From assembly GCA_030386875.1 (NCBI GenBank), contig CM059562.1:70988201-71052200 (forward strand): a stretch of 64,000 nt of DNA. The letters run 5' to 3'. Shown in pieces: positions 10,869-53,981 of this stretch. The notes under the pieces were generated by a model. That model was not told where the DNA came from. It saw only the letters and a list, made by a program, of their open reading frames with translations, and searched no databases. Source of the DNA: Morinoia aosen. Lineage: Eukaryota > Arthropoda > Malacostraca > Amphipoda > Talitridae. Position 1 is the stretch's first letter; every line of letters begins with the position of its first letter. The position numbers were made by a program, and so were the translations under genes.

Positions 10869-10884
10869 GTATTAACCAGGGTTG

Positions 10885-11125
10885 CGGAGTCGGAGTCGGA
10901 GTCGGGAGTCGGAGTCGCCGGAGTCGGATGTTTTAGGGTGGAGTCGGAGTCGGAGTCGGAGTCGCTTCTCTGAAGTGTGGTGGAGTCGGAGTCGGAGTCG
11001 GAGTCGCTACTCTGAAGTGTGATGGAGTCGGAGTCGGAGTCGCTTTTCCGAATGTGATGGAGTCGGAGTCGGAGTCGGAGTCGTTCATTCGGATGTGGTA
11101 GAGTCGTGGTTGGAGTCGCTCTTTT
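10885..11125 (+). repeat. Left subterminal GGAGTC array of the hAT-like element
   Basis: Runs of three to four GGAGTC hexamers are separated by 15-16-bp spacers such as 'cttctctgaagtgtgg', giving a 42-bp period (26 bp of hexamers plus 16 bp of spacer) that decays inward. In hAT elements subterminal repeats commonly act as transposase binding sites; that role here is inferred. Confidence 0.8.
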
Positions 11126-12718
11126 TGGTGTCTTCGATTCTAATTTTTGCTAAAAATTATTTATAATTCTTTACAACTAAAAGTAAACCAAAACAGAGTT
11201 AGAATGCTTTGCTAAAAAACCTTAAAAATACACAATGTTTTTGTTGATTGTTTTGTTCTAAGTATGAAACAGCGTATTTATTCCTATCACCTAATACCGT
11301 CATGTTATCTAGTCATTGAGGGTTTGCACAGATATATATGAGAAACCTACGAGTGCGAAATATAATTTTTGTACCCAGCATTGATGTATATTTTGTAGTT
11401 AAAAGCAGGAATTAGTAATTGAAAGCATCGCAAATTCATTCTGTATATATCTGTTTTGTTCATTTTTCCTTCAATTAATACATGGGAACTGGAAAATAGT
11501 ATTAAATGTGTTGCAAGTTACTTGTAGAACATTTCAGCTGATGCAATACATTGTACTCACATAAAGAGTGGTAACTCTGTATGCTCAAAATGATGCATTG
11601 ATTGATAATGATCATAAACATTTCTAGTCTTTAGGTTATGATTCATTGCCAATGAGTAGTCTTTGCCGAAACCTGAAGCTATGGTCTAGTGCACAAAGAC
11701 TTCTAGTTTTCAAGTCATGTTATCAAAATTGATATGGATTCCGTGTTTTTAAGTCAAGTTAACATGTATTAATAATAAAAATTTCTGCTCATTTCTCAAG
11801 TTATTCCTTGAATGTAATTTGGTTCTTTCAGAGTTATATTGTATTTCACTATATCATCATCATGTTTAATTTTTATCTTCGTATCACTCCCCAGTTTTTA
11901 AGCAAGTATACGCTGAAATGGAGAATTTTATAATGATCTTGATACATTTTTAAAAACTGAAATAGTATTCGTTTTGTAGCATTATATAATTAATTACTTC
12001 TTGTTAAGGAAGATTTGGAAATGTTGTAAGGTTATCTATATCGGCATTGAGACACTTGAAAAAAATTAAAATACGATGTAAACGAGCTGCAATGAAAATA
12101 ATTACACACACCAGCAAAAACTTCACTTACAGTCACACACACATTGTAACTGAAAACAATGCACTATCTCAGCTGCAATGGTTTTTGCATTTATGCGATA
12201 GTACAAATTCTCTTGCTGGAAACGTTTCAAATTGCTCCAAAAAACACGAAATGAGAAGAACCTGGGCGTTTATTAAAATAACAAAGTGTCCAATACAAAG
12301 TAAAAAGTTAGACGAAAATAAGAGATAGTATCATATTACACGCAAAGAAGCTAGAAGTGACTTTTATTCGTAAAAAAACGCTCCGAAAACGTCAGAACCC
12401 TGCGATGAAAGCAGAACAACTTTTGCTTATTATATATAGCCGAAATGTAACATAGAGTTGAGCAATAATATGACACTTTTTGTGCATTGTTACCCTGCAT
12501 AGTGTAGGTACCGAGAAGAAAAGGCAGTGTGCAAATCTGGCCTACCTTAGCTACACGTATACATAATTTTGGGGATTTGAAGCATAGTCATTGAATCAAC
12601 TATTATAATTTCAATGAATTAGTGCATACTTAGTAATAAAAAACTGTTGATACATATCTATGCTTCTCAGTGTAGACAATGCCTACATTACCTACTCAGA
12701 AAACACTTGTCAGTAATA
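11126..12718. other. Interior of hAT-like element, no coding signal
   Basis: AT-rich sequence. The longest frame is 93 codons at 12047-12328 (+), lysine-rich and without similarity I can name. Confidence 0.45.
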
Positions 12719-12720
12719 TA

Positions 12721-13347
12721 CAGGGTGTTTCAGATTCAGAATAGGAGGCAAAAAATTGCACACCAACTAGAAGATATCCAAGTAAAAACTTTTTCTTCTA
12801 TAAAATTTTCCGAAGAAAGAGACATTGAGATATTAGCAGTTTATTGTTTTTAAGGGTGAAATTTAATGAATAAACTACTCTCAATATTGATTTTGAATTT
12901 ACGTTGATCCGGCGAAATGTGCTAGTTGCATGACCTCCTAGATCTCCTGACATGACTCCACTCGATTTCAATTTTTGGGGACACGTGAAGAGCCTTGTTT
13001 ATGCTACACCCATTGGGTCTGAGGAAGATCTTGTGGCCAGAATTGCAGTGGCTGCAGGTGAGATACCTTAATGCCAGACGTGTTTCCTAATATTCGGCAG
13101 CCGTTAAGGCTAACATTCGAAAAGTGCATAGATGTAGGTGGAACACATTTTGAACAATTTTTGTAAAGTAAATTCAGAATCAATATCGCGAGTAATTGTG
13201 CCATTAAATTTCAACCTTAAAAAAAATTAACACCTTATACCTCCCAATCCCGATTATTGGGGGGAAAATTTCATAGGACAAAAAGTGTTTATTTGGCCAT
13301 TTTCTACTTGATGTGCAATTTTGTACCTCGTGTTCTGAAACACTCAG
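12721..13347 (+). mobile_element. Tc1/mariner-type remnant, internally deleted
   Basis: The element is bounded by TA on both sides (12719-12720 and 13348-13349). The left end reads CAGGGTGTTTCAGATTCAG. The right end on the other strand reads CTGAGTGTTTCAGAACACG, and the inverted similarity continues for about 90 bp (about 12721-12812 against 13262-13347). Between them only the C-terminal part of a transposase gene survives, so most of the gene is deleted. Confidence 0.8.
12934..13166 (+). pseudogene. C-terminal fragment of a mariner-type transposase
   Basis: Read from 12934 the + strand gives PRSPDMTPLDFNFWGHVKSL, followed by VYATPIGSEEDLVARIAVAA. This is the region around the last catalytic aspartate (the D of SPDxTPLD) of Tc1/mariner-type transposases. 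A second frame gives DVFPNIRQPLRLTFEKCIDV then GGTHFEQFL and a stop at 13164-13166, the usual family C terminus. The two parts are in different frames, and the codon before PRSPD, normally Trp, is TGA. The N-terminal DNA-binding half and the first catalytic residues are absent. This is a dead gene fragment inside the element at 12721-13347. Confidence 0.8.
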
Positions 13348-13351
13348 TATA

Positions 13352-13590
13352 CATAATTGTGTACACGACTCGTCATAAATGACGGGATTCGATATTGTCT
13401 GTATAGAAATCTTTCAGATGTGGACCATAAAGAAATATTTCCATCCTAATAGCACCCGCGATTAAAATATTCTAATACTTGTGCACTTGTGAAACTCGCA
13501 TCACAGATACAGTAGTTAAGCATCTTTAAGAGCGTGAAAGGGAGACAGATGAACCAACAAAGACGAACAGCCAATTTTGTTTGTTCAATG
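13352..13590 (-). repeat. Repeat B copy, minus strand
   Basis: The reverse complement matches the segments at about 15688-15905 and 31745-31960, with shared blocks such as 'aaagatgctta', 'gtatctgtgat.cgagttt' and 'gtgcacaagta'. The mariner-type remnant lies directly against the far end of this copy. The family is unclassified, non-coding and seen three times in this window. Confidence 0.65.
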
Positions 13591-14592
13591 AAATTTCCTG
13601 TTGAATATTTTCCGTATTTCTGATGGCGGCTTTGTGGAAGAAAAAGTTTTCTTCAGTTGGTCTCTCTTAGTTCACAGACAAGAATTTGAAACTGATGAAA
13701 TGAGATCTTTTTGTTCGTTGTTTTTTGTTTTGCAGCTGCATCTTTTCTTTTCGATTTTTGTGTTTAAATTCAACTTTCTATAATTAAGCACGTTTGCGCT
13801 TCTAGCAGACCTGCATTAACCTTAAATAGCTTTAATTAACATTACTTCTGACGCTTTGGCGTTCACTCATTAAATTATCTTTGAGCTTGCTCTGCTTGGG
13901 CAGCACGTCGTCCTTTTAATAAAAGTGGGTCTGGTACCTCTAACTTATTTCTCTTGCGTAAAAAGTAGTCTCTTTCTGCGACTTGAACTCCTCGACCCGG
14001 CTTTTGCAGCCTCTTGAATAGGCACTTATTATTGAAGGTAATTAATTGTCAAATAATTGTTAAAATCTTAGTGCTCTATGCAATCTTGCAATAAGATACG
14101 ATATTCACCTAGTCGGCGACCAGACAGCTTAAAACTCTGTATCTCTCTACTCAGAACGCCTCTAAAATTCCCTACCGGAGTACCGTACTGATGACCGGCC
14201 GCGTCCATTGGGTGTCTTCTATTTTTAGCGAGTATCGTTTTAAAAACTAACCTTACGTTAAAGAAGATCTTCGGTCTCTATTTTAAAGGAATTTAATAAT
14301 AAAAATATTACAGAGGACGCTGCTGAGCGTACTGTTGGAATCCTCAAGATCTGCCTAACTTGGGTACGGTTTCTCTTTTTGCGCAGGAGAAAAGGGAAAC
14401 GACTTGCTGTTGTTCCCTTGAAGTTCTTCTGTATTTGAAATAAATGTTCGAGCAGTTGCCCTTAAGTTTTAAATCCTAAAACTCCATTGTATTAACATAG
14501 GAGAGATTACGCTCACGAAATAGCTAAACCTATTTATTAATTTGTTCAAAGGAGATGTTTGACCATTTATTGTATAAGAACAATCAATACTA
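13591..14592. other. Interior of hAT-like element, unannotated
   Basis: AT-rich sequence without recognised features. Confidence 0.4.
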
Positions 14593-14594
14593 TA

Positions 14595-15367
14595 CCGGGT
14601 GTCCCACAAAAATGTCCCGGACTTTTTAATTGATAATATCTCCGCTTAAAATTAACATATTTTAATTGTCTTTTATTTACAATTTAGTCAATTTTGTTTC
14701 CTTTTGAAATAATTTAAGTTTTTGAAAATCAGTTGAATAAACTTTAAGACGATCGATTTACTGAAAGGGGTAGAAAAATTGTTCAAAGGGAAAGTTTTAA
14801 AAACAACACTGGTGTTCTTCTTCATTCCTCAATACCTACTGTTAAGAATAATTTCATAACGATGTATCGTACATACAACTAAGTATTTAAACCCTCTGAG
14901 AGGTTTCAAGTTTCAAGTGTTCTCAATAATAGTGTTTCAAGGACTGATAAAAACGGTGGAATAATGGGTAAAACTCTTCGTTCAATGGTGGCTAGAAGTA
15001 ATACTTGCCTTGAGAGAAATGGAGGGTATGTTGTTGGATACTAAAATTACCTCATTTATTTAAACGTTATATAAGGTAATGATTTGTTACTCCTTAAAAT
15101 TTTTGTGTGTTCAGTTTTATGGAAACTACAAAATAAGGAAGAATATCAATATTGTTTTAAAAACTTTTCCTCTGAACAATTAATTTTTCTGCTCGTTTCA
15201 GTAAATTGGACATTGTACAGTGGTTATTCAACCGATTTTCAAAAATTTTAATTATTCGAAAAGGAAACAAAATTTACTACATTGTGAAAAAAGGCAATTA
15301 AAATATGTTAATTTAAAGCTGAGATATAATTAATTAAAAATCGGGGACATTTTTATAGGACACCCGG
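14595..15367. mobile_element. Long-terminal-inverted-repeat DNA element
   Basis: The left end CCGGGTGTCCCACAAAAATG and the right end, read on the other strand, CCGGGTGTCCTATAAAAATG, start inverted repeats of roughly 250 bp (about 14595-14845 against 15130-15367) with moderate divergence. The flanks are TATA/TA, so a TA target is likely, as for the Tc1/mariner superfamily. The roughly 280-bp middle has no open frame. This is a non-autonomous fold-back type element; superfamily assignment rests only on the TA flank and the GGGTGTCC end. Confidence 0.75.
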
Positions 15368-15687
15368 TATAATAAAAAGCCAGGTGTCCGTCAATGATAA
15401 GTATATGTTCTCGTGTGTAATTTCCCCTATCTCATTACAATGGGAATCTGCTTGCTTGGACAGTATCATAAATACCATCGAAATATGAAAAACCTGGCAT
15501 CTGCTCACTTATGTTTATAAGTAAAAAACATTGCGTGAAAATCAAATCAACTGTCAAGAAAATGCGACTCATTGCATTTAAATTTCAAAGGCATTTAAAT
15601 GCTTAAAAGGTATGGCAAATTTTTTAAAAACCTCTTGCGTACAATAATTTAAATTACAATTCAGGTAGGTATTATGTTATACAATTT

Positions 15688-15905
15688 GCTTGGTTGTTGT
15701 GTGCGTTTGTGACGTTTTTAAAGATGCTTATTGACCGTATCTGTGATACGAGTTTTACCAGTGCACAAGTACGAGAATACTGTATTTTAATCGCAGGTAC
15801 TATTACAATGGATATATTTGTTTGCCATTTTTATCTTGAAATTTTTTTAAAACGATACCATTGGATCGTCATTTTTGACCAATCACGTACACTAGTATCT
15901 TGATT
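15688..15905 (+). repeat. Repeat B copy, plus strand
   Basis: It matches the reverse complement of 13352-13590 and the + strand of 31745-31960. Shared blocks include 'aaagatgctta', 'gtgcacaagtacgagaata' and 'cgtacactag'. With the copy at 13352 it forms a widely spaced inverted pair inside the hAT-like element. A 69-codon open frame across it is not shared by the other copies. Confidence 0.65.
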
Positions 15906-16221
15906 ATTAACAATCTGTAGTCAATTTAAAAGTCTTTCGCTAATAAAGAATATAATGAACATATGCACAGGTTTCAACACCTGCAACCGTTTACTACTAA
16001 GAATGACTGTCGTGTGTTTATTTATACGTTTTGTGTCACGCTGTTAAGAATAATTGATAGGAAAAAAATAGCACTGGCGGTGTTGGTTCCAGTTCACGGT
16101 CAATTAATACACTCATTTTCGTTGTGCAATAGCTCTGTAATAAGTCACTTTCATCACAATTAGAGCGATCCAGAGCCTTATATACTCAAGTTTGTATCGT
16201 GAATACCGAGTTCGGCGGGGT

Positions 16222-16300
16222 ATTGCATATTGAAATATGCTGTATTGTATATTACAATATACTGTATTGCAATGTACTGTATTGCATATTACAATATACA
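16222..16300. repeat. AT-rich palindromic short duplication
   Basis: The near palindrome TGTATTG(T/C)ATATTACAATATA occurs at 16241-16261 and 16278-16298, 37 bp apart, with related half-copies around it. Each copy could form a small hairpin (TTGTA and TACAA arms). Confidence 0.6.
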
Positions 16301-16599
16301 TACACAAGTTCGCAGTTGCTTTCAGTAATGCTGAATTTCTGTATCTTAGATACGACACGAATGGCTATAACTACTTCTCTTGCGGCTCAAAAATGCTGTG
16401 TTCTGAGTGTTTATTACTCTTATAAGAAAATTAAGTTACCTTTGGAATAAGCTGAAAACATGGAAACTCCACTCAAACGAAAATTTGTTGAAGAAAGGTA
16501 TTGAATTTTGTCATTTTTACGGTCTGTGTACACCAGTTAAGAAATAAAATATTTATCTTATAAATTATGAATAGGTGAAGTTGGAGTCACAAAATTGTG

Positions 16600-16845
16600 A
16601 ATAGGCGGAGTCGGTGTTGGAGTCGCCAAATTCTGGAGAAATGGAGTCGGAGTCGGAGTCGGAGTCGCCAAATTCTGAAAAGGTGGAGTCGGAGTCGGAG
16701 TCGGAGTCGCCAAATTCTGAAAAGGTGGAGTCGGAGTCGGAGTCGGAGTCGCCAAATTCTGAAAAGGTGGAGTCGGAGTCGGAGTCGGAGTCGCCAAATT
16801 CTGGAGAGGTGGAGTCGGAGTCGGAGTCGGAGTCGCAAACTTATT
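16600..16845 (+). repeat. Right subterminal GGAGTC array of the hAT-like element
   Basis: Five nearly identical 42-bp units of four GGAGTC hexamers plus the 16-bp spacer CCAAATTCTGAAAAGG. The array has the same 26 + 16 layout as the left array but a different spacer, and lies in direct rather than inverted orientation. Open frames on both strands (rich in Pro/Thr or Ser/Glu/Arg) are by-products of the hexamer. Confidence 0.85.
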
Positions 16846-16932
16846 CCACCGACTCCGCAACCCTGGTATTAACTGGTCAAAAGGGGCTATTGACTAGAAC
16901 ATTGAAAGTGAAATGCATCACGTAGGAAAATT

Positions 16933-31353: not shown

Positions 31354-31960
31354 CAGCTGTTGCTTGTTTGTTTGGTTGGTTCGTCTCTCCCCCTCAGGGG
31401 GATACAACTATTGTTTCCATGGGAATTAGCGCTCCCAGGGGGGCAACGAGAAGGCCCGAGCTGAGAGTTAGGTAAGCCTTCTCTTTGTTGAAATAAAATG
31501 TTTGCTGTTGTGTCAAGGACCACCTTTTTCCGATTCACTGCTGTCCTGTTTTTTATCACCAACTTCTTTATTCTTCGACTTTGACTTTGTTTCATTATTT
31601 TTTTCATCGACTTATTGTTTCTAGAACTTTTCGGCATAAACTCCGCGTTCCCTTAACTCCATACTAAATGGTGCCTTCCTCCTTCCTGTCTTTGGATCAC
31701 CTTTGTCGCAGATAAGGGGGCTTAAACTATCTAATAATCTAATCTGGTTCGTCTCTATGTCACGCTCTTCAGGATGCTTAATGAGTGTATATATTTGATA
31801 TTCTCCAGTACACAACTGCGAGAAAATTTTACTAATGGGTGCAAGTAGGCTGGATATCTTTGTTCGCCATCTACAGCTGTTTGATTTATTTGAGGAAAAT
31901 ATCGAATCCTGTCATTTTCCTGTACACTAGTTGGTATTAATCGTGTTTACATTCAAATAA
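31354..31960 (+). repeat. Repeat B copy split by a SINE-A insertion
   Basis: The part after 31745 ('tggttcgtctctatgtcacgctcttcaggatgctta...') matches repeat B copies at 15688 and (reversed) 13352. The short part before 31388 ('cagctgttgc' to 'ggttggttcgtctct') matches the upstream end of the 13352 copy. SINE-A at 31389-31744 interrupts the two parts. The family is unclassified. Confidence 0.6.
31389..31744 (+). repeat. SINE-A copy with perfect 12-bp duplication
   Basis: Full-length copy with head CCCCCTCAGGGGGATACAAC, GAAATAAAATG in the body and tail CTAATAATCTAATC. The flanks carry TGGTTCGTCTCT at 31377-31388 and 31745-31756 without mismatch. It sits inside repeat B, so it is younger than that copy. 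Confidence 0.92.
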
Positions 31961-51091: not shown

Positions 51092-53981
51092 AGTGGTGCT
51101 GCACACTGGCGTGTGGTGCTGCACACTGGCGTGTGGTGCTGCACACTGGCGTGTAGTGCTGCACACTGGCGTGTGGTGCTGCACACTGGCGTGTAGTGCT
51201 GCACACTGGCGTGTGGTGCTGCACACTGGCGTGTGGTGCTGCACACTGGCGTGTGGTGCTGCACACTGGCGTGTGGTGCTGCACACTGGCGTGTGGTGCT
51301 GCACACTGGCGTGTAGTGCTGCACACTGGCGTGTGGTGCTGCACACTGGCGTGTGGTGCTGCACACTGGCGTGTGGTGCTGCACACTGGCGTGTGGTGCT
51401 GCACACTGGCGTGTGGTGCTGCACACTGGCGTGTGGTGCTGCACACTGGCGTGTGGTGCTGCACACTGGCGTTTGGTGCTGCACACTGGCGTTTAGTGCT
51501 GCACACTGACGTGTAGTGCTGCACACTGGCGTGTGGTGCTGCACACTGGCGTGTGGTGCTGCACACTGGCGTGTGGTGCTGCACACTGGCGTGTGGTGCT
51601 GCACACTGGCGTGTGGTGCTGCACACTGGCGTGTGGTGCTGCACACTGGCGTGTGGTGCTGCACACTGGCGTGTGGTGCTGCACACTGGCGTTTGGTGCT
51701 GCACACTGGCGTTTAGTGCTGCACACTGACGTGTAGTGCTGCACACTGGCGTGTGATGCTGCACACTGGCGTGTGGTGCTGCACACTGGCGTGTGGTGCT
51801 GCACACTGGCGTGTGGTGCTGCACACTGGCGTGTGGTGCTGCACACTGGCGTTTAGTGCTGCACACTGGCGTGTGGTGCTGCACACTGGCGTGTGGTGCT
51901 GCACACTGGCGTGTGGTGCTGCACACTGGCGTGTGGTGCTGCACACTGGCGTGTGGTGCTGCACACTGGCGTGTAGTGCTGCACACTGGCGTGTGGTGCT
52001 GCACACTGGCGTGTGGTGCTGCACACTGGCGTGTGGTGCTGCACACTGGCGTGTGGTGCTGCACACTGGCGTGTGGTGCTGCACACTGGCGTGTGGTGCT
52101 GCACACTGGCGTGTAGTACTGCACACTGGCGTGTAGTGCTGCACACTGGCGTGTGGTGCTGCACACTGGCGTGTGGTGCTGCACACTGGCGTGTGGTGCT
52201 GCACACTGGCGTGTGGTGCTGCACACTGGCGTGTGGTGCTGCACACTGGCGTGTGGTGCTGCACACTGGCGTGTGGTGCTGCACACTGGCGTGTGGTGCT
52301 GCACACTGGCGTGTGGTGCTGCACACTGGCGTGTGGTGCTGCACACTGGCGTTTAGTGCTGCACACTGGCGTGTGGTGCTGCACACTGGCGTGTGGGGCT
52401 GCACACTGGCGTGTGGTGCTGCACACTGGCGTGTAGTGCTGCACACTGGCGTGTGGTGCTGCACACTGGCGTGTGGTGCTGCACACTGGCGTGTGGTGCT
52501 GCACACTGGCGTGTAGTACTGCACACTGGCGTGTGGTGCTGCACACTGGCGTGTGGTGCTGCACACTGGCGTGTGGTGCTGCACACTGGCGTGTGGTGCT
52601 GCACACTGGCGTGTGGTGCTGCACACTGGCGTGTGGTGCTGCACACTGGCGTGTGGTGCTGCACACTGGCGTGTGGTGCTGCACACTGGCGTGTGGTGCT
52701 GCACACTGGCGTGTAGTACTGCACACTGGCGTGTGGTGCTGCACACTGGCGTGTGGGGCTGCACACTGGCGTGTGGTGCTGCACACTGGCGTGTGGTGCT
52801 GCACACTGGCGTGTGGTGCTGCACACTGGCGTGTGGTCCTGCACACTGGCGTGTGGTGCTGCACACTGGCGTGTGGTGCTGCACACTGGCGTGTGGTGCT
52901 GCACACTGGCGTGTGGTCCTGCACACTGGCGTGTGGTGCTGCACACTGACGTGTGGTGCTGCACACTGGCGTGTAGTACTGCTCACTGGCGTGTGGTGCT
53001 GCACACTGGCGTGTGGTGCTGCACACTGACGTGTGGTGCTGCACACTGGCGTGTGGTGCTGCACACTGGCGTGTGGTGCTGCAAACTGGCGTGTAGTGCT
53101 GCACACTGGCGTGTGGTGCTGCACACTGGCGTGTAGTGCTGCACACTGGCGTGTAGTGCTGCACACTGGCGTGTGGTGCTGCACACTGGCGTGTGGTGCT
53201 GCACACTGGCGTGTGGTGCTGCACACTGGCGTGTGGTGCTGCACACTGGCGTGTGGTGCTGCACACTGGCGTGTGGTGCTGCACACTGGCGTGTGGTGCT
53301 GCACACTGGCGTGTGGTGCTGCACACTGGCGTGTGGTGCTGCACACTGGCGTGTGGTGCTGCACACTGGCGTGTGGTGCTGCACACTGGCGTGTGGTGCT
53401 GCACACTGGCGTGTGGTGCTGCACACTGGCGTGTGGTGCTGCACACTGGCGTGTGGTGCTGCACACTGGCGTGTGGTGCTGCACACTGGCGTGTAGTGCT
53501 GCACACTGGCGTGTGGTGCTGCACACTGGCGTGTGGTGCTGCACACTGGCGTGTGGTGCTGCACACTGGCGTGTGGTGCTGCACACTGGCGTGTGGTGCT
53601 GCACACTGGCGTGTGGTGCTGCACACTGGCGTGTGGTGCTGCACACTGGCGTGTAGTGCTGCACACTGGCGTGTGGTGCTGCACACTGGCGTGTAGTGCT
53701 GCACACTGGCGTGTAGTGCTGCACACTGGCGTGTGGTGCTGCACACTGGCGTGTGGTGCTGCACACTGGCGTGTAGTGCTGCACACTGGCGTGTGGTGCT
53801 GCACACTGGCGTGTGGTGCTGCACACTGGCGTGTAGTGCTGCACACTGGCGTGTGGTGCTGCACACTGGCGTGTGGTGCTGCACACTGGCGTGTAGTGCT
53901 GCACACTGGCGTGTAGTGCTGCACACTGGCGTGTAGTACTGTACACTGGCGTGTAGTACTGCACACTGGCGTGTATTGCTG
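51092..53981. repeat. 20-bp satellite array, about 144 units
   Basis: The unit GCACACTGGCGTGTGGTGCT repeats with exact 20-bp register over about 2.89 kb: every 60-base interval from 51121 to 53941 starts at the same unit position. Variation is by substitution only, mostly GTGTGG to GTGTAG, plus GTTTGG, GTTTAG, GTAGTACT, CTGAC and GGTCCT types. The unit has no stop on the - strand in any frame, and three units make 60 bp, so open frames up to 759 codons with a 20-residue Cys/His-rich period arise on the - strand; they are not genes. Confidence 0.98.

Follow-up and report, generated by a model that had tools for sequence, protein, structure and literature searches.

The part of the maize report used here (PMC3260210) describes Ds2, of the Ac family, as a non-autonomous element with 8-bp duplications, hexamers repeated subterminally and filler DNA of unrelated origin, which is present in 39 copies in B73 and has about 200 bp of Ac sequence preserved on either side. 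The same part gives an average size of 4 kb for Ds-l3, which retains parts of Ac exons, and about 1 kb for the numerous Ds-l4 class, with AAACGG as the subterminal repeat of Ac itself. For Hermes, the portion of PMC10368747 used here reports subterminal repeats that are bound by a BED domain and arranged asymmetrically, and in the corresponding portion of PMC6887750 MER6 appears as a mariner-derived miniature inverted-repeat transposable element (MITE) which carries a V-SINE domain and has spread a retroelement sequence. A comparable mobile unit is present in a 64,000-nucleotide stretch of the genome of the talitrid amphipod Morinoia aosen (assembly GCA_030386875.1, contig CM059562.1, positions 70,988,201 to 71,052,200; this whole stretch is termed the window below). 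It very probably represents a family of very large (~6 kb) non-autonomous hAT-type DNA transposons that is mobilised in trans and amplifies its cargo.

The closest kind to this family is a Ds2-type hAT derivative, from which it is distinguished by its size, copy number, uniformity and shared cargo. To the extent that the above systems are covered in the cited portions, it resembles Ds2 and Ds-l3 in being dependent and in its 8-bp duplications, Ds2 in its subterminal hexamers and filler DNA, and Ds-l3 in its kilobase-scale length; unlike the Ds elements, it has thousands of exact ends, a uniform size of 6-7 kb and no known autonomous relative. Within the same bounds, it shares with Hermes and Ac a short motif repeated near both ends, but differs from them in that its putative binding motif, CGGAGT, is repeated about 22 times per end in 42-bp blocks, with one orientation common to the two ends. 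Like MER6, as the source portrays it, the family is a DNA transposon spreading sequence that had lodged in it, whereas the unit here is a 6-kb hAT-type element and more than one insertion has been spread. Literature searches with the array letters returned nothing on transposons, going by title, and no description of this family was recognised in searches by topic, judged from bibliographic entries. Seven viral-contig matches to the 17-mer of the ends in public collections were taken as chance, as they have no array alongside.

In the window the mobile unit spans positions 10877-16865, that is 5,989 bp between the 8-bp target site duplications GTATTAAC at 10869-10876 and 16866-16873, which match exactly. 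As this octamer is itself common in the window (7 occurrences against 2.6 expected), only its placement is informative. The unit is bounded by a perfect 17-bp terminal inverted repeat, CAGGGTTGCGGAGTCGG at 10877-10893 on the + strand and its counterpart at 16849-16865 on the - strand; these two ends are the only matches in the window at up to 3 mismatches, and shuffled controls yielded 0/100. Two subterminal arrays of the hexamer CGGAGT, at 10885-11118 and 16579-16836, contain 22 and 23 instances of GGAGTC, respectively, against a single one in the interior. Rather than being mirrored, the two arrays share one orientation on the + strand, and the two ends mirror each other over the inverted repeat alone. 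The same organization is seen across 17 aligned copies, with 21-23 instances of GGAGTC in the left array, 16-23 in the right and at most one in the interior. Re-measurement in the window thus confirmed what an initial annotation, made from the letters alone, had described as identical flanks, a perfect 17-bp inverted end, paired arrays and one 5,989-bp unit. Its further description of the interior as ordinary AT-rich DNA without a hAT gene was correct in regard to composition (GC of ~0.29-0.39 between the arrays versus 0.40 for the window) and agrees with the searches given below as to the gene, no hAT remnant having been found; however, the interior is not plain DNA, but contains nested inverted-repeat elements.

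The assembly searched comprises 1.99 Gb in 29 contigs, with the window copy on contig C7. The left 532 bp used as query recovered 1811 candidates, of which 40 (the window copy included) were scored, at 89-100% alike. The initial annotation had proposed looking for further copies of the ends, and the 17-mer CAGGGTTGCGGAGTCGG indeed has 1871 forward and 1901 reverse exact matches (3772 in all), as against none for a reversed control; were every end paired, this would amount to an estimated ~1,890 units or 11 Mb. The first 100 end places listed of these 3772 are confined to C1; 84 of them can be joined into 42 inward-facing pairs spanning 4,824-15,142 bp under a pairing limit of 20 kb, and in none of these pairs were left and right ends seen to derive from different, smaller elements. 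The pair sizes cluster near 6.0 and 7.0 kb, and similar clustering recurs in both of the samples described next.

The unit inserts as one piece with an 8-bp duplication. Both ends were present in 16 of 20 copies fetched, and 15 of these 16 have an exact 8-bp duplication, the exception being L024. Further sampling used ends preceded by GTNNNNAC or CTNNNNAG, patterns with fixed outer bases and four free inner bases; each is its own reverse complement and, therefore, both ends of one insertion can match. The genome contains 174 + 196 ends preceded by GTNNNNAC and 91 + 92 preceded by CTNNNNAG. Among 100 places listed for the former, 34 pairs were formed, 28 of them with an exact duplication (32 places unpaired); 100 places listed for the latter gave 37 pairs, with an exact duplication in 36 (26 places unpaired). 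These samples overlap, such that certain insertions are counted in more than one. Some pairs are alike in both duplication and size, e.g. two 5,992-bp GTCTGCAC units on C7, as might be seen if segmental duplication of host DNA, and not transposition, had been the main route by which the family spread. Such an origin is extremely improbable, given that near-identical copies on different contigs bear different exact duplications and that the duplications are varied in both samples.

A few aberrant units were also encountered. In the GT-type sample of 34 pairs, two pairs measure only 52 and 65 bp and two others measure 3.7 kb and have no matching duplication. The 52-bp unit (L057, C4:1174150-1174330) consists of the two tips only, with an exact 8-bp duplication, and the 65-bp unit (L058, C7:4682880-4683090) likewise of two tips, with one mismatch in the duplication; these are possibly products of recombination between the same-direction arrays that deleted the interior. 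L056 (C4:70824850-70828600) is a palindromic 3.7-kb unit that is bounded left and right by ends of the right type and whose palindrome runs on into the flanks, and a unit of nearly the same size is found at C4:71975443.

Most pairs among the 17 aligned copies differ by 1.7-2.8%. Closer sets are formed by the window copy and L016 (0.18%, on C7 and C21), by L018, L019, L020, L022 and L023 (0.17-0.27%, on five contigs) and by L033 and L034 (0.15%, both on C24). As their duplications differ, the near-identical copies are separate insertions, and a divergence of just 0.17-0.27% between copies on different contigs implies recent movement. After six near-duplicates (L016, L019, L020, L022, L023 and L034) were dropped, 645 of 681 variants are singletons, a pattern expected of a burst from few sources. 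In the same reduced set there are 61 singletons in the right ~890 bp versus 556 in the 4,500-bp interior (two-sided p 3.6e-6), which is no more than suggestive of a lower divergence near the ends, as the aligned copies had been picked by likeness to the left end.

Certain observations weigh against the interpretation of these copies as a non-autonomous hAT-type family, and relate to the pairing of the ends, the coding content and the source of the transposase. With respect to pairing, four of the 20 fetched copies (L026, L031, L032 and L035) lack a right end even when 3 mismatches are allowed, 16 of the 100 listed C1 ends are without a partner, L024 and L036 have no matching duplication, and 6 of the 34 pairs in one sample have no exact one. 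With respect to coding content, the interpretation is favoured by a Pfam scan, which gave no match above the cut-off, and by a tblastn search with twelve frames taken from six hAT loci (one of these frames, of 201 aa from L046, does not look hAT-like), which gave no match to the element with E below 0.2; against it, both types of search may miss very diverged genes, and the Pfam scan covered 10 of the 28 frames of at least 55 aa. As to the transposase, a genome search with the profile of the hAT dimer domain (PF05699) produced 150 scored hits out of 2753 candidates. Beside the 22 of these 150 whose flanks were inspected there is no GGAGTC array, and hence the autonomous relative with the same ends suggested in the initial annotation did not emerge, although the flank of L047 ended before the element end and other flanks of 1.1-1.2 kb may do so too. 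Likewise, no hAT match comes closer than 15 kb to any of 72 end places (of 100 listed). As no autonomous partner was found, the hAT label rests on the ends and the duplications.

These points might also be accommodated if the unit were itself autonomous, its transposase having escaped the searches through fast evolution or splitting by introns. Dependent elements are seldom as long as 6 kb, the frames outside the Pfam scan leave room for such a gene, and 3 of 13 tested frames are stop-free in all of 11 copies. Nevertheless, this is very improbable: no frame outside the arrays exceeds 106 aa, nested repeats fill much of the interior, and the variable sites of the 13 frames in the 11 copies are spread over codon positions 1, 2 and 3 (sums of 110, 99 and 108). 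In each of the remaining 10 of the 13, one or more copies contain a stop, and single frames deviate from this spread on few sites only, e.g. 13449-13652 on the minus strand (5, 3, 11); thus, neither codon-position counts nor stops give a sign of selection in the 13 tested frames.

Similarly, the ends could belong to another superfamily that generates 8-bp duplications, such as P or Merlin, in which case the hAT label would be wrong, and indeed no transposase ties these ends to hAT. This is improbable in light of the short inverted repeat, which starts with the CAGGG typical of hAT elements, as do the ends of L043, L044 and L045, whose frames have a hAT dimer domain. It is further countered by the composition of the duplications: in 16 that were counted, T occupies position 2 in 12 and A position 7 in 13, which fits nTnnnnAn, the consensus of Ac-type duplications. 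Polintons/Mavericks, which generate 6-bp duplications and carry many genes, and Helitrons, which generate no duplication, contrast with the 8-bp duplications and the lack of a long frame in this unit. With MITEs it shares a non-coding nature, high copy number and uniform length, but its sizes near 6.0 and 7.0 kb are far from the shortness (below ~0.8 kb) of those elements.

If the family is a non-autonomous hAT type, its transposase might be supplied by cross-mobilisation from the J family (L044), although this particular source is unlikely. This family has the nearest ends found (CAGGGTTGCCAGAAG, matching the first 9 bases of the unit's end) and, in its 2,581 bp, a frame of 719 aa that includes a hAT dimer domain; at the 3' end, L044 agrees with L061 at 99.6% over 252 bp, and the right-end sequence of the family occurs 42 + 29 times in the genome. 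On the other hand, J has no CGGAGT array, but by eye its own TGTTAC-like subterminal motif, and L044 is without matching 8-bp flanks. Its right-end sequence adjoins 12 of 35 dimer-domain hits compared, including hits grouped apart, and J thus may not be one family. For these reasons J is only a candidate.

Further hAT families found in the genome (L037-L042, L049, L051 and L059) have, near one end, repeats of the CG-containing hexamers GTATCG, ATTCGC, TAATCG and GGGGCC, as counted by a detector that is confined to CG-containing hexamers and has no null model. With that qualification, they resemble the present family in having such repeats, but differ from it in the hexamers and the ends, and in adjoining dimer-domain hits. 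A BED finger is encoded at one of these hAT loci (L060), and it is possible that in L037, L049, L051 and L059 the zinc finger and the array change together. L047, a hAT hit on C14, was considered as a partner and set aside: its match to the inner arm of L056 is now attributed to a nested palindromic repeat that the two have in common, and in L059 the L047 hit is accompanied by a GGGGCC array. C21 holds 72 of the 150 scored dimer-domain hits, many of them clustered at 4-6 and 62-83 Mb, and L062 by eye resembles an old copy of the GTATCG family.

The proposal that this is a very large non-autonomous element carrying other DNA gained support from the genome copies, in which both ends delimit one ~6-kb unit with repeats inside. 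In the window copy, the left array is followed at 11119-12718 by a non-coding stretch without recognised content that is common to the aligned copies. Next to it lies a nested inverted-repeat element (12721-13347) flanked by TA at 12719-12720 and 13348-13349. Its filled left junction occurs 504 + 495 = 999 times in the genome and in 22 of the 42 C1 pairs, and the corresponding empty site, sought as 23 exact bases interrupted by a short gap, was recovered 0 times in the genome, with a pattern whose right half has no control of its own and which diverged sites would escape. This TA-flanked element entered the unit early. Its labelling as a mariner, prompted by the flanking TA and by a frame of 45 aa at 12934-13071, was not confirmed, the frame having no match in Pfam or PDB. 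A second inverted pair has its arms at 13353-13535 and 15712-15898, the former with similar sequence at 31751-31917 of the window, and a further nested inverted-repeat element with TACCGGGTGTCC ends and TA on both sides probably extends over 14593-15369. Elsewhere in the window, a 20-bp tandem unit is repeated in 144 copies with 97% matches (51093-53974).

Additional insertions distinguish subsets of copies. L036 is a 7.0-kb unit that corresponds to the same element with a later insertion of ~1 kb, a long interspersed nuclear element (LINE)-like fragment, at window position ~15,470 (15461-15475, empty in the window copy). The exact junction of this insertion occurs 187 + 173 = 360 times in the genome; it is found in 13 of the 42 C1 pairs, always at a distance of 1,367-1,409 bp from an end. 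None of the 14 C1 pairs that have a different right-end variant (counted 374 + 385 times genome-wide) contains it. Since at least 360 copies have this insertion in an identical position, the best explanation is that a copy already bearing it was amplified. Part of it recurs in L056 (88% alike over 369 bp), which identifies it as an interspersed repeat. The LINE label itself was not confirmed: its 186-aa frame has no Pfam match and a single PDB match, to a ribosomal protein (E 0.15). L019 and L023, which lie on different contigs, have in common a 368-bp insertion at window position 13818 (empty in the window copy), flanked by ACCTTAAA and with no inverted ends by eye; three units of 6,361-6,362 bp, which may hold the same insertion, are present in the CTNNNNAG sample. 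L027 has a 225-bp insertion with TTAA flanks.

Longer end-bounded intervals are also seen, namely 10.0, 11.8, 26.5 and 33.8 kb with exact duplications in the GTNNNNAC sample, and 11.9, 13.0 and 13.7 kb with exact duplications and 33.4 kb with one mismatch in the CTNNNNAG sample. The longest are C7:32229205-32255686 (26.5 kb), which includes the LINE-like junction, C4:79256550-79290349 (33.8 kb) and C9:5842650-5876039 (33.4 kb). The plainer reading of the 10-34-kb intervals is a later insertion into a 6-kb copy. A more speculative and rather doubtful extension is that the family is an open-ended cargo carrier, which becomes longer with each successive insertion (from 6.0 to 6.36 and 7.0 kb) with the larger forms multiplying in turn, and that some of the 10-34-kb intervals may have moved as giant units; such growth would be open-ended because movement would depend on the ends and hexamer arrays alone.

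Mechanistically, a hAT-type transposase made elsewhere would bind the 17-bp ends and the CGGAGT arrays, cut the unit out and paste it at another site, and the copy number would rise via movement during replication and gap repair from the sister copy. As only the ends need keeping, the interior would be free to drift and gather cargo. A common view is that dependent DNA transposons owe their success to being short. A ~6-kb unit without a recognised gene that has 3,772 exact ends and has moved recently hence amounts to a natural experiment on whether hAT movement is restricted by length, and the insertions common to hundreds of its copies form a series that traces how a transposon acquires and spreads other DNA.

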